Shown here: positions 28,226 to 33,359 of the stretch, one piece after another
How the letters are laid out: every line of letters begins with the position of its first letter
How positions within the stretch are numbered: the stretch's first letter is position 1
DNA from: a bacterium
GTDB taxonomy: Bacteria > Sysuimicrobiota > Sysuimicrobiia > Sysuimicrobiales > Humicultoraceae
DNA: 38,531 nt
NCBI GenBank assembly: GCA_030018905.1
Contig: JASEHJ010000004.1
Location: 1-38,531 of the forward strand
Reading direction: 5' to 3'
Translations under genes and position numbers: made by a program
The notes under the pieces: generated by a model
The model's database searches: none
Told to the model about the DNA's origin: nothing
What the model saw: only the letters and a program-made list of their open reading frames with translations

Positions 28226-28951
28226 ATGGGACGCCATCCATCACGGCGCCACGCATCACCCGAGGATGTTCCGGTTGGACACCGGATCCGCGAGCGCAGA
28301 CGCGACCTCGGAATGACACAGACACACCTTGCCGGCGAGGTCTACACCAAGAGCTTCATCAGCCAGATGGAAAGCGGGCACGCGGACCCCTCCATGGACA
28401 CCCTGCGCTACCTGGGCCGCAGGCTGGAGATGGGGTTGTCCAGCATGGCCGGCAGCGTTGCCGACCAGCATCTGGCCGCGGTGGAGGGCCTGCTGGCATG
28501 GGCACAAGAGGCGCGGCAGGCCGGCCGCACCGACGCTACGCGCCGCGCGATCGAGATCGGCATCGAGATCGCCACGGCCCCCGCATTGCATCGCCACCTT
28601 GCAGAGGCCTGCCTGCTCCTGGCAGAAGTTGAGATCGAATCAGGGTCCGGCGATCGGGCGGCAGGGGCGCTGGAACGGATTCCAGAGCCATCCGTCCTGG
28701 CCGATCCCCGCGTTGCCATCCGGAAGGGCCTGGCTGAAGGGCTGCTCGCCCTGAGAAAGGATGACATCTCCGAGGCCACCGCGGCGTTCTGCCGTGCGCT
28801 GTACCAATCCCGCAGGTCGGCCCGGTACGGCGACCTGACGGTTCGTGCGCTGGCAGGACTTGGCGAGGCGCTCGCCCGGGCAGGCCACCACCAGCAGGCC
28901 CGGCGCAGGCTTGAAGCCGCCGCGCGAATGGCAGCGCGGTCGCGCAGGTAG
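28226..28951 (+). CDS. XRE-family regulator with TPR-like C-terminal domain
   Basis: This 241-residue protein has an XRE helix-turn-helix at about 18-75 (RIRERRRDLGMTQTHLAGEV, then SFISQMESGHADPSMDTL), followed by a helical region with TPR-like spacing (AEACLLLAEVEIESGSGDRAAGALE; VRALAGLGEALARAGHHQQARRRLE). Its DNA-binding part resembles that of the longer XRE-TPR regulator at 31479-32771. TPR-bearing XRE proteins often sense peptides, but no small secreted peptide gene was found beside this one. GGGGGA precedes the ATG by 7 nt. It converges on the operon at 28961-33037, with 9 nt between stops. Confidence 0.75.
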   Translation: MGRHPSRRHASPEDVPVGHRIRERRRDLGMTQTHLAGEVYTKSFISQMESGHADPSMDTLRYLGRRLEMGLSSMAGSVADQHLAAVEGLLAWAQEARQAGRTDATRRAIEIGIEIATAPALHRHLAEACLLLAEVEIESGSGDRAAGALERIPEPSVLADPRVAIRKGLAEGLLALRKDDISEATAAFCRALYQSRRSARYGDLTVRALAGLGEALARAGHHQQARRRLEAAARMAARSRR

Positions 28952-29494: not shown

Positions 29495-30348
29495 CGCGAC
29501 CCCCTTTCTCCTTTGGATGAGCGCACGCGGACCGTGCGCGTCGCAGCGTCCCAGGCAGGAGCCTGCCATCCCAACATGGCACACAACTCGGAGATCTTCA
29601 CGTAGCCGCGGTCGCCCCGCACGATTGCCGCCAGATCACAATCCCCAGTCCCGGTGCGCAGGGTGGTGGCCCGGCCGCCAATCCGAAGAACGATCCAACC
29701 CAAGAAGTCAGCCAGCGGCCGCAGCGGGCACCACGCCGCCCCGCCTTTGAGCAATCCCTCATCGGAGACCGTGAGGCCATCCACGATTACGCGCACTGGA
29801 AACAGCCGCTCCTTCAAGGCGGCGCCACCCAGGCCTTCCCCAACCATCGCGCGAAAGGCTGCGCCGACTTCAATTGCAGGCCTCTGCGGGTCCCAGGGCA
29901 GCACCATAGGATCCCACTTACCTCCCTGGGGCACGCTGAGCGCGGACTCGACCTCTCCGTGCCCCAGCACGGTCTCAAGAGCCACCGGTATGTGGTACCG
30001 TTCGCAGAGATCGGCTGCCACCACTGCCATCACCTCGTACTGGGCGGCGTTCATTGGGTACCTCCCCGCCCGGAAAGGCCGCTGCATGGCACCGGCCATA
30101 CTGCATGCGGCAATGCCAATGCTTCCCGTGTTCATCATTCGGACGTGCTGGGCGTAGTCGTCACCGGCTGTACTCACGTTGTCCGATATCATGTGGTCGC
30201 CCCGCACTAATCGGCCGTCGGATTCGATCAGAACATGGTAGTGTTCCCGGTCACCGGAACCCGCGTGGTGCACTCCGCCGGTCCAGTGGGTAATGATGCG
30301 CTCCATACGGCAGTCGGGCATCCACGCGTCGGGCACGATTCGCGGCAT
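29491..30348 (-). CDS. N-acetylmuramoyl-L-alanine amidase with copper-amine-oxidase-N-like domain
   Basis: This 285-residue protein begins with an amidase_2 (T7 lysozyme/PGRP-type) domain. Zinc ligands are likely H21 (ITHWTGG), H130 (LGHGEV) and D146 (GKWDP), with Lys144 nearby, and EHYHVLI resembles the family's YH motif. The domain cleaves the bond between MurNAc and the stem peptide. From about 185 to the end the sequence (FPVRVIVDGL, APCPLRPLADFLGW-like, WDAATRTVRVR) resembles the copper amine oxidase N-terminal-like module used for surface binding. There is no signal peptide. The ATG overlaps the patatin stop as TGATG, so the longer frame to 30465 is not the gene. Confidence 0.78.
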   Translation of the reverse strand: MPRIVPDAWMPDCRMERIITHWTGGVHHAGSGDREHYHVLIESDGRLVRGDHMISDNVSTAGDDYAQHVRMMNTGSIGIAACSMAGAMQRPFRAGRYPMNAAQYEVMAVVAADLCERYHIPVALETVLGHGEVESALSVPQGGKWDPMVLPWDPQRPAIEVGAAFRAMVGEGLGGAALKERLFPVRVIVDGLTVSDEGLLKGGAAWCPLRPLADFLGWIVLRIGGRATTLRTGTGDCDLAAIVRGDRGYVKISELCAMLGWQAPAWDAATRTVRVRSSKGERGSR

Positions 30349-31442
30349 CAGGCCTCTTCCCGGGGCTTCGGGGCCCCTGCCCGTCGAATCCGGCCTGCAA
30401 TCTCCCTCCGGCGCGACCGGTCCTTGCCCTGCCGGAACTCGGCGATGTATCCCTCGAAGTCCCAAGATGAAAGGAACCGTTCGGAGGCTGCCCGTCCGGA
30501 CTCGTACAGGGCCACGGCCCGGTGGCGCGGCAGGTGGAACTCCGTGCCCCCGATGCCCAGCGTCGGTATCGGAATCGTGCGTGCGAAGTCGGCGTTCTCG
30601 ACATACAGGCGATCATGAGCCTCCAGCATGGTCTGGACGATGCTCTTGACGTAGTCCACCACAGCGCCGGCCGCACCGCGGGCCGCCCCAGGCCTGGGCA
30701 GGCGTTCGGATACCGGGACCCTCGGGTCGGGCTCTACCAGCAATAGTCCGAAGGTAGGCCATGGGGGCTCACCCTCGGTGTCAAACAGCCAAACCGGGAA
30801 GTTGGAGAGCATCCCGCCGTCCACGATCAAGTGCTCCTGCCCTGTCTGCTGGTTGCGGAACCGCACAGGCTCAAAGAAGATGGGAATGCTCATGCTCATT
30901 CGAGCCGACAGCGCCACATCGAGATCATCTGGGCGCACGCCGAGCCTCTGCGCATCCCGGGGCAGCACCAACAGGCGGCGTTCGGTCAGGTCTGAAACGA
31001 TCACCTGCGCCCTGTAGCGGTACCGGGGCTGATCCGCAAACTCGGGGTGGATCAGATCGGAGAACGTACGCACGCCCTTGGCCTCCAGCAGGCCGCGTAC
31101 AAATGCGAGGAACGTGTCGCCCTCGTAGATCCCCTGGTCCAGCAGGATGCTGAGCGGCGTTCCGAGGAAGGGTATACGGTCTTCCCAGGCGGAATCCAGG
31201 AAGCTGCGGAAGTCGAACTCGAGAATGATCTCGCGCAGTTCCTGGGCAGAGTACCCGGCGGCGTGCAGGACGGCGACCATTGCTCCGGCCGAAGCACCGG
31301 CCACGTTCTGGGGCATGAAGCCGCGCTCCTCGAGGACCGAGAGGGCGCCGACCAGCCCTACCCCTTTGACCCCGCCACCCTCGAAGACGAGGTCCACACG
31401 CTGGCCGCGCGGTGGGCCTATCCCATCCCCCTGCTCGGGCAT
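30348..31442 (-). CDS. Patatin-like phospholipase
   Basis: This 364-residue protein has the patatin Ser-Asp dyad fold: oxyanion loop FEGGGVKG (20-27), nucleophile elbow GASAG with Ser51, and the catalytic Asp208 in DGG. It is expected to hydrolyse fatty acyl chains from membrane lipids. No signal peptide or membrane segment is visible. The ATG at 31442 has GGAGG 8 nt upstream; the GTG at 31451 overlaps that site. It starts 36 nt after the XRE-TPR regulator and overlaps the amidase start, so it is part of the regulator operon. Confidence 0.82.
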   Translation of the reverse strand: MPEQGDGIGPPRGQRVDLVFEGGGVKGVGLVGALSVLEERGFMPQNVAGASAGAMVAVLHAAGYSAQELREIILEFDFRSFLDSAWEDRIPFLGTPLSILLDQGIYEGDTFLAFVRGLLEAKGVRTFSDLIHPEFADQPRYRYRAQVIVSDLTERRLLVLPRDAQRLGVRPDDLDVALSARMSMSIPIFFEPVRFRNQQTGQEHLIVDGGMLSNFPVWLFDTEGEPPWPTFGLLLVEPDPRVPVSERLPRPGAARGAAGAVVDYVKSIVQTMLEAHDRLYVENADFARTIPIPTLGIGGTEFHLPRHRAVALYESGRAASERFLSSWDFEGYIAEFRQGKDRSRRREIAGRIRRAGAPKPREEA

Positions 31443-31478
31443 CGCGCCCACCTCCGAAGCCGGCCGGGTACAGGTGAT

Positions 31479-32771
31479 CTAGCTGGCGGCGAGCGCGGCC
31501 TCCTGGGCGCGAAACGCACGGGCGAAGAGCCGGGCCGCGTGTCCCTCCTCCCCCCGCTCGAGCGCAAGGAAGGCGTAGTCGCGGCTGATCCGAGCGATCT
31601 CGCCGGCCGCCTGGAGACGCTCGAACTGCTCCAGAGCGAAGGCGTACCGGTGAACGGCTTCATCGAGACGGCCCTCACGATGGCAGACCGCGGCCACCAC
31701 CGCCTCGGCGCGCGCCGCCTCCGACGGATCCTGGAGCTTCACGGCCAGACGGATCGCTTCTGCTGCCTGTTCACGCGCTGCCTGGAGATCCCCGCGCAGC
31801 ATCGCGACCCTGGCGAGTTCCGTCAGCGTCTGTGCCCGCCCGGCGTCGTCGGCCAGATGAGTAGCCAGGGTAAAGCTCTGCTGGAGCGCCTCTGTGCCCT
31901 CGCTGAGACGCCCGCGACTCACCAGCAGAATGCCCAGGCTACGCTTGACCGTGCCCAGCAGATGGAGGTTCTCTTGAGCCTCGAAGAGCAGGGCGGCCCT
32001 CGCCAGGTGGTCATGGGCCAGATCAAAGGCCTGCTGCCGCTCATAGGCGACACCGAGGTTGAAGTGGAGCAGTCCCAGCGCGCTCATATCGCCCAGAGGC
32101 TCGAGCCGTTCGAGGGCTCCCTGGTAGCAGTCAAGCGCCTGTGCGGGGAGGCCGAGTTCTGAATAGGTCCGGCCGAGGTTGGCCAGTTGCCTGCCCTCGA
32201 ACTCCGTGTCCACAGGGACGGCCGAGCGAATGGCGCTCAGGGCCCGGGAGAATGCGTCTCGGGCGGCCGGGTAGTCGCGCTGCCGGAGGGAAAGGAACCC
32301 TGTGGCGCTTGCCACGCGCGCGACGAGATCCGGCCGCCCGAGCGCACCCGCAATGGCGCGCCCGCGTTCCAGGTGGTGTTCGGCCAGGTCAAACTGCCTC
32401 AGCCCCGTGAGCGCCTGGCCCAGTCCGATCTGGATGCGGAAGGCAATCTCCAACCCGGGATCCGAAGCCGACGCCCGTTCCGCCTCCTGGAATGCTTCCA
32501 GGGCTTCGGTAAAGCTGTGTTGCCGCACCAGCGATGTGCCTAGTTCCAGCTTCAGGACGACCTTCTTGCGCGGGGGTGGATCGGCGTCAAGCAGGTCTGC
32601 AATCGGCACGTTCAACCGGCCGGCGAGCACACGCAGCGTTTCGAGTGAAGGGCGAACCTTGTCATGCTCGAGCATGCTGATGAAGCTCTCGGAAAGGTCG
32701 CCCGCTGCCAGCCGGCGCTGGGTCATGCCACGGCTCTTACGAGCCTGGCGGACCTTCTCACCAAGCGTCAC
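31479..32771 (-). CDS. XRE-family regulator with about nine TPR repeats (RRNPP-like peptide receptor candidate)
   Basis: This 430-residue protein has an N-terminal XRE helix-turn-helix (about 5-60: VRQARKSRGMTQRRLAAGDL, SFISMLEHDKVRPSLETL) followed by about nine TPR units from residue 70 to the end, each with the usual Leu/Gly/Tyr/Ala pattern (for example LANLGRTYSELGLPAQALDCYQGAL). This layout is that of RRNPP regulators (PlcR, NprR, Rgg, PrgX), whose TPR groove binds a secreted and re-imported peptide. A repeat-bearing secreted peptide gene lies 26 nt upstream on the same strand. It starts at GTG 32771 behind GGAGAG. The receptor role is inference from architecture and neighbourhood. Confidence 0.8.
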   Translation of the reverse strand: MTLGEKVRQARKSRGMTQRRLAAGDLSESFISMLEHDKVRPSLETLRVLAGRLNVPIADLLDADPPPRKKVVLKLELGTSLVRQHSFTEALEAFQEAERASASDPGLEIAFRIQIGLGQALTGLRQFDLAEHHLERGRAIAGALGRPDLVARVASATGFLSLRQRDYPAARDAFSRALSAIRSAVPVDTEFEGRQLANLGRTYSELGLPAQALDCYQGALERLEPLGDMSALGLLHFNLGVAYERQQAFDLAHDHLARAALLFEAQENLHLLGTVKRSLGILLVSRGRLSEGTEALQQSFTLATHLADDAGRAQTLTELARVAMLRGDLQAAREQAAEAIRLAVKLQDPSEAARAEAVVAAVCHREGRLDEAVHRYAFALEQFERLQAAGEIARISRDYAFLALERGEEGHAARLFARAFRAQEAALAAS

Positions 32772-32797: not shown

Positions 32798-33037
32798 CTA
32801 GCCTGCGCCGATCAACTCACCGTCACCGTGACCGGCCCAGCCGCCGTTCAACAGCTCGCCGTCACCGTGGCCGGCCCAGCCGCCGTTCAACAGCTCGCCG
32901 TCACCGTGGCCGGCCCAGCCGCCGCTCAACAGCTCCCCGTCACCGTGACCGGCAGTGCGCAGCGCAGCGGGTTGTATGGTGACGGTAGCCACCATGACAA
33001 ACGAGATCACGAAGGCAAGGGCGATGATCTTGCGCAT
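32798..33037 (-). CDS. Secreted repeat peptide, candidate pheromone precursor
   Basis: This 79-residue protein has a positively charged start (MRK), a hydrophobic stretch (about 4-20, IIALAFVISFVMVATVT) typical of a signal peptide, and then four copies of AGHGDGEL in tandem units of 13 residues (AGHGDGELLNGGW); the first unit has S for N and the last is cut short as ELIGAG. No cysteine is present, so disulfide or lanthionine peptides are unlikely. AAGGAGG lies 8 nt before the ATG. It is the first gene before the XRE-TPR regulator. Repeated units in an exported precursor recall multicopy pheromone precursors, but no homologous family is recognised. Confidence 0.75.
   Translation of the reverse strand: MRKIIALAFVISFVMVATVTIQPAALRTAGHGDGELLSGGWAGHGDGELLNGGWAGHGDGELLNGGWAGHGDGELIGAG
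32821..32953. repeat. 39-bp tandem repeat inside the peptide gene
   Basis: Three full 39-bp units (32821-32859, 32860-32898, 32899-32937) and a 16-bp partial unit (32938-32953) follow each other without spacers. They differ by only a few single bases. The period keeps the reading frame and encodes the 13-residue peptide unit, so copy number could change by slippage or recombination without frameshift. Confidence 0.92.
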
Positions 33038-33146
33038 GTGAATCTCCTCCTTAGGCGTCCGACCGGGCAGGCTGCAGTGGGGTATGGCGGAAGGGTGCGT
33101 GTGAAGCTGGATGCCCGAAGTGGGGGTTGTGTTCGACGCAAACCAC

Positions 33147-33178
33147 TGAAGTTCCTCCTGGGAAGCCAGAGAACTTCA
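33147..33178. promoter_or_regulatory. Operator-like inverted repeat upstream of the peptide operon
   Basis: TGAAGTTC (33147-33154) and GAACTTCA (33171-33178) form a perfect 8-bp inverted repeat with a 16-nt spacer. A third copy of the half-site, TGAAGTT, is at 33210-33216. The site lies 110-141 nt upstream of the peptide ATG and is a candidate binding site for the XRE-TPR regulator. Confidence 0.45.
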
Positions 33179-33292
33179 CCTGGATTGAACCACCCTGCCC
33201 CCTGGGTACTGAAGTTGGCGCATCTAGGCAGGCCTGCGGTCTGCGGGGGAGGATTCCCGGCTTCGGATGGCTGAAGGAGGAGCCGAAGGTTC

Positions 33293-33359
33293 GGGTCGGG
33301 GGTGTCCCCTCTGGACCGACGGTGCCGGAGGACGTCGTGCCGGTTTCCACCCCCGACCC
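33293..33359. repeat. Long-range inverted repeat in the leader region
   Basis: GGGTCGGGGGTG (33293-33304) pairs perfectly with CACCCCCGACCC (33348-33359), enclosing 43 nt with further short GC-rich complementarity. It could fold as a structured leader RNA. I could not match it to a known riboswitch. Confidence 0.45.

Follow-up and report, generated by a model that had tools for sequence, protein, structure and literature searches.

What does a short gene built of tandem peptide repeats do beside a DNA-binding TPR protein? The question is raised by a precursor gene at 32798..33037 on the minus strand of the window, the whole 38,531-nt stretch of DNA analyzed here, whose stop codon lies 26 bp upstream of a gene for an XRE-HTH and TPR protein (32771-31479). 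With a probability of about 0.82, judged from sequence comparisons, precursor and XRE-TPR protein form a pheromone/receptor unit of the RRNPP type for cell-cell signalling.

The precursor gene was examined first. The first-pass annotation had described an ORF of 79 codons with a signal-peptide-like start and a strong ribosome-binding site, and both were recovered: the frame runs from an ATG at 33037 to 32798 on the minus strand, and the Shine-Dalgarno sequence AAGGAGG (33046..33052, same strand) is located 8 nt before the ATG. Codons 1-29 (32951..33037, minus strand) resemble a signal peptide, i.e. a basic n-region, an 11-residue hydrophobic core of mean hydropathy 3.1 and a putative cleavage site after ..LRTA; signal peptides were called throughout by a simple rule of charge and hydrophobicity. 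The protein can be written MRKIIALAFVISFVMVATVTIQPAALRTA-GHGDGELLSGGWA-GHGDGELLNGGWA-GHGDGELLNGGWA-GHGDGELIGAG. The four copies of GHGDGEL spaced by 13 aa, as previously noted, are indeed present; the 13-residue units are less uniform than was described, the first one having S instead of N and the fourth being truncated and ending in ELIGAG. At the DNA level the array has a period of 39 bp, 3.5 copies and 94% matches (score 241, Tandem Repeats Finder), and is the top-scoring array of the window. No exact internal repeat of such length was found in 500 shuffles of the precursor. The idea of a recent expansion of the 39-bp units was not upheld: the copies diverge at synonymous positions, and the units of the window are therefore not very fresh duplicates. 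Scans of the peptide against Pfam and NCBIfam gave no match, and scans of the region against Rfam gave none above the gathering score.

The same gene is present in the other three species of the genus, with 3, 2 and 4 units, and frame, leader and repeat are all kept; the genomes compared are metagenome assemblies. The 13 GHGDGEL copies of the four species show no amino-acid change, while their Gly, Asp and Leu codons vary: seven changes are observed, all synonymous, which at random has a probability of about 4e-5, taking roughly 5 sites as synonymous and 16 as nonsynonymous. The leader, in contrast, tolerates 8-12 amino-acid substitutions per species pair, so that the motif is what selection keeps. 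A lack of conservation in relatives, or of coding constraint, had been named beforehand as what would speak against a secreted peptide precursor, and neither was found.

The putative receptor (31479..32771, minus strand) is a protein of 430 aa in which Pfam identifies HTH_3 and TPR_12 (E 7.6e-25 for the latter), a length within the 250-500 aa expected of RRNPP receptors with TPRs. Folded from its single sequence, it gives a model in which an HTH at the N-terminus is followed by a long TPR superhelix (mean pLDDT 83.5, the HTH being less certain at 46-66). The top match of this model with VIA-align is apo RapI (Z 31.3, rmsd 3.5, 353 residues aligned), and further Rap proteins and NprR are among the matches; among solved chains, the HTH matches PlcR by sequence. 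The likeness to RRNPPA folds is not exclusive: LGN/Pins proteins of eukaryotes come close to RapI as matches to the TPR part (Z 30, VIA-align), Foldseek alone places LGN higher, and identity to RRNPPA structures is about 12-15% in the structural alignments. Since the LGN/Pins match almost equals that of RapI, the fold alone cannot identify an RRNPP receptor; the predicted fold fits peptide binding and leaves descent from RRNPP unproven. With a receptor profile run on 386 genomes across the domain (best four candidates per genome), matches below 1e-52 were obtained solely in this phylum; with that limit on candidates, relatives of lower score may have escaped. No precursor was found upstream of the best match outside it (6e-51), nor upstream of XRE-TPR genes in two genomes of other phyla (G368, G150), and no relative of the receptor was found on viral contigs. 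The window also contains a second, shorter XRE-TPR gene (28226-28951, plus strand, 241 aa), whose place beside the receptor operon is kept in two genomes (G001, G003); no precursor ORF was seen upstream of it.

XRE-TPR relatives were gathered from 43 genomes of the phylum (phylum and order comprise the identical 43). A precursor-like ORF was present directly upstream, on the same strand, at 44 XRE-TPR genes. These ORFs code for 38-135 aa (median 46); they begin with a basic and hydrophobic segment, after which comes a short Gly/Asp-rich motif, in up to five copies. The 79 aa of the window's precursor lie within the 10-100 aa of RRNPP propeptides, a range which two of the 44 (135 and 101 aa) exceed owing to their repeats; distances to the receptor are 16-277 bp in the 42 pairs measured, inside the RRNPP interval of -60 to 400 bp. 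A small signal-like ORF precedes 39 of the 65 XRE-TPR genes with sufficient upstream DNA and none of 55 other genes (Fisher p 2e-14); in the background set gene starts were predicted by a simple rule, and four matches which were the same peptide gene in overlapping loci were removed. An exact motif repeat of at least 7 residues is found in 19 of the 44 precursors, against none in 500 shuffles of each. In the window's own receptor clade the precursor lies just upstream in all 15 members with upstream DNA, the sixteenth being cut by a contig end. Mapped on the receptor tree, precursor presence requires 10 changes compared to 22.1 with shuffled labels (none of 500 as low). At some XRE-TPR relatives no precursor was detected, a point against the signalling reading. 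The earlier remark that no family with this repeat is known has to be revised: the gene belongs to a family of such pairs that spans the phylum.

The motif type tracks the receptor clade. Examples are GHGGGELL at the protein end (G017, G029, G037), GRGDxDSFG (G004, G010), two copies of GDSLPGGS (G020, G032), of GDVGPGDS (G026), of GDTGPGQNG (G017) or of APELPGEN (G006), and five copies of GDDNGPG or GDDNGSG (G034). They also give clues to where the mature peptide begins and ends. Among precursors with two copies, many have the first one right after a signal-peptidase-like site (..AVSA, then GDVGPGDS) and the second running to the stop codon (..EIA, then GDVGPGDS); of 68 motif copies, 47 have Ala directly before them. 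The non-repetitive homologues of another family terminate exactly at AGHGGGELL, and because of this end point we read the 13-residue unit as an 8-residue core with a 5-aa spacer. The active peptide is most likely GHGDGELL, followed by the spacer S/N-GGWA, and this core is a likelier product than the whole 13-mer. The predicted pheromone copies, with ends taken from the relatives, are located on the minus strand at 32927..32950, 32888..32911 and 32849..32872 (GHGDGELL) and at 32810..32833 (variant GHGDGELI).

In the mechanism that we propose, the precursor would be exported by the Sec machinery, and signal peptidase and other proteases would cut the Ala-Gly junctions (..TA/GHGD and ..WA/GHGD), which would yield about four peptides, GHGDGELL and, for the last one, GHGDGELI. 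An oligopeptide ABC transporter would then re-import the peptide; the genome encodes 34 SBP_bac_5 oligopeptide-binding proteins. Inside the cell the peptide is expected to bind the regulator on the concave side of its TPR superhelix; the regulator would then alter its grip on an operator before the precursor gene and so exert feedback on the precursor-receptor operon, and probably also on the patatin and amidase genes that follow. We infer that the precursor is exported, where it is cut, that the peptide is re-imported and bound, and which way the regulator acts; the secreted multicopy precursor, as first suggested, finds support in the conserved frame, leader and motif, in the synonymous-only core, in the receptor pairing and in the repeated motifs of other clades, its export and processing being predicted.

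In the DNA upstream of the precursor a promoter- or operator-like motif, GGAACTTCA-N9-GTCGAA, is present at 33132..33155 (minus strand), once in the genome. In the form GGAACTTCA-N8-9-GTCGAA it has a single match, located before the precursor, in every one of 8 genomes of the family, and a reversed control gave 0. It overlaps an inverted repeat, TGAAGTTC-N16-GAACTTCA (33147..33178, minus strand), a candidate binding site for an XRE dimer. Other receptor clades carry different conserved upstream blocks, and exact copies of AGGATTRCATAACC are located at the pair in four genomes; AGGATTRCATAACC with two mismatches was rejected as a regulon definition, being too loose. These motifs, like the TCTAAAA motif described next, are consistent with a dimeric XRE protein that regulates its own operon; each may be operator or promoter. 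Upstream of the precursor at L038, L044, L046 and L048 (4 genomes of genera g2, g4 and g6), TCTAAAA-N14-CGATAA/G occurs once per genome. It resembles the sigma-28 consensus, and its uniqueness at the pair is unusual for that promoter type; a general sigma-28-type promoter was discarded, as the motif is single in each genome and only at the pair. Further upstream lies a 78-nt hairpin element (33282..33359, minus strand), single copy in its own genome, with a 12-bp stem (GGGTCGGGGGTG..CACCCCCGACCC). The four species of the genus all have its core; the element is invariant in the genus while the flanks diverge, and it stays with the precursor though the flanking upstream gene differs in G001. It has no Rfam match, and as a terminator or RNA it is not supported on the minus strand, where its folding energy is within that of shuffles (z -0.66; plus strand z -2.1).

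The genes 3' of the receptor are a patatin-like phospholipase (30348..31451, minus strand, PF01734), 27 bp past the receptor, and an N-acetylmuramoyl-L-alanine amidase (Amidase_2, PF01510; 29491..30348, minus strand), which overlaps the patatin gene. The gene order including the amidase is the same in G001 and G003, and G009 likewise has a patatin after the receptor, though not the same one; patatin and amidase are therefore candidate output genes. Neighbours otherwise differ between genera, only the receptor being shared save for patatin-type genes in genus g1 and G009, so that precursor and receptor are the unit. This distribution also bears on the reading of the gene as the precursor of an antimicrobial peptide (bacteriocin) or RiPP, the XRE-TPR protein being a mere local regulator, which we consider unlikely. 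A short exported-looking precursor with a repeated core and an adjacent regulator would suit such a system, and the TPR part of the receptor weakly matches an NCBIfam RiPP-associated TPR protein, far below the cut-off. However, the neighbours vary by genus, and those scanned (DAO oxidoreductase, patatin, amidase, XRE-TPR) include no RiPP- or bacteriocin-type modification, immunity or export gene; moreover a TPR regulator accompanies the peptide in every case, and its Gly/Asp-rich motif lacks Cys.

Quite improbable, too, is an exported peptide with another extracellular target, in the wall or by metal binding, while the receptor senses another ligand. GHGDG could bind metal ions, and an amidase and a patatin adjoin the pair in the genus; but the motifs of other clades have no His, and from clade to clade the motif changes markedly along with the receptor, a co-variation which is expected of a signal and its receptor, not of a fixed chemical role. 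Little credit can be given to a pair of the toxin-antitoxin kind, in which an XRE repressor would hold a small hydrophobic peptide of the membrane in check: a small hydrophobic protein and an XRE regulator do share an operon, yet the conserved part is the hydrophilic C-terminal motif rather than the hydrophobic stretch, motif copies reach five and the TPR superhelix of the modelled receptor is long. A chance or non-coding ORF, which shortness, GC-rich tandem-repeat DNA and an open opposite strand might suggest, is practically dismissed, as it is already contradicted by the conservation data, namely frame, Shine-Dalgarno sequence and motif kept across species with synonymous-only change, and non-repetitive homologues ending in GHGGGELL in another family.

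A pheromone/receptor unit is thus the reading that we carry to the comparison with known systems. The RRNPP signature is a small exported propeptide adjoining a TPR receptor of 250-500 aa (PMC10075063). Our system resembles RRNPP in this layout, its export being supported by a heuristic, and the pair has the length, spacing and domains by which RRNPP_detector selects its candidates, in a search that covered Firmicutes and viruses (PMC10075063). In NprR-NprX and PlcR-PapR of the Bacillus cereus group, as here, an HTH and TPR receptor of similar length has a small precursor adjacent to it, exported there and predicted to be exported here; the differences are the phylum, the position of the precursor upstream of the receptor, the identity of about 13% in structural alignments and the Gly/Asp-rich peptide. 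The pheromones of many known systems are hydrophobic or basic, unlike the peptides described here. Rap-Phr shares the TPR superhelix (RapI being the best structural match) and a repeated pheromone in its propeptides, whereas Rap proteins have no DNA-binding HTH and their repeats are mostly two imperfect copies, compared to up to five here. Tandem-pheromone propeptides are known from RRNPP systems of Firmicutes, including Phr of phages Phi3T and Phi105 (PMC11343458). Generic XRE-TPR regulators of other phyla (G368, G150) share HTH and TPR and give weaker profile matches, without an upstream precursor.

A survey of 13,513 genomes found RRNPP systems in Firmicutes, all genera but one being in Bacilli (PMC9765709), and the open-licence papers searched describe RRNPP quorum sensing for Bacillota, their plasmids and phages only, an earlier report elsewhere being possible. 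On balance we favour pheromone signalling through cytoplasmic TPR receptors across a whole phylum other than Bacillota. Its Gly/Asp-rich signals would have diversified on their own, one genome having up to several private pairs, and the system would either be an old sister lineage of RRNPP or have arisen independently. Dozens of pairs with different peptides in one uncultivated phylum suggest an undescribed chemical language, comparable to those of Bacillus and Streptococcus. If true, peptide communication extends beyond Bacillota, which bears on how old the mechanism is. The predicted peptides and receptors, more than 40 pairs, are open to synthesis and direct testing. Where an organism is known mainly through metagenomes, practical access to its behaviour is rare, and a predicted pheromone would offer it.

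Further observations concern single loci or clades, and the phylum. At L081 (G035), a frame ending in IAGDVGPGGG is located about 150-200 bp before the receptor start, behind the upstream motif of the clade and without a clear signal peptide; it is apparently a decayed precursor beside an intact receptor. At four loci of one receptor clade (L061, L068, L069, L070), an exported cupredoxin-like protein of 143-156 aa replaces the precursor upstream. Sysuimicrobiota/CSP1-3, which comprise one class and one order, were once counted with Armatimonadota (PMC11604079), and are probably the phylum studied here. Within the genus, contig DYHL01000167.1 (L003), labelled Candidatus Nitrosymbiomonas of Armatimonadota, carries a two-copy version, and its label is probably at odds with the contig's true phylum.
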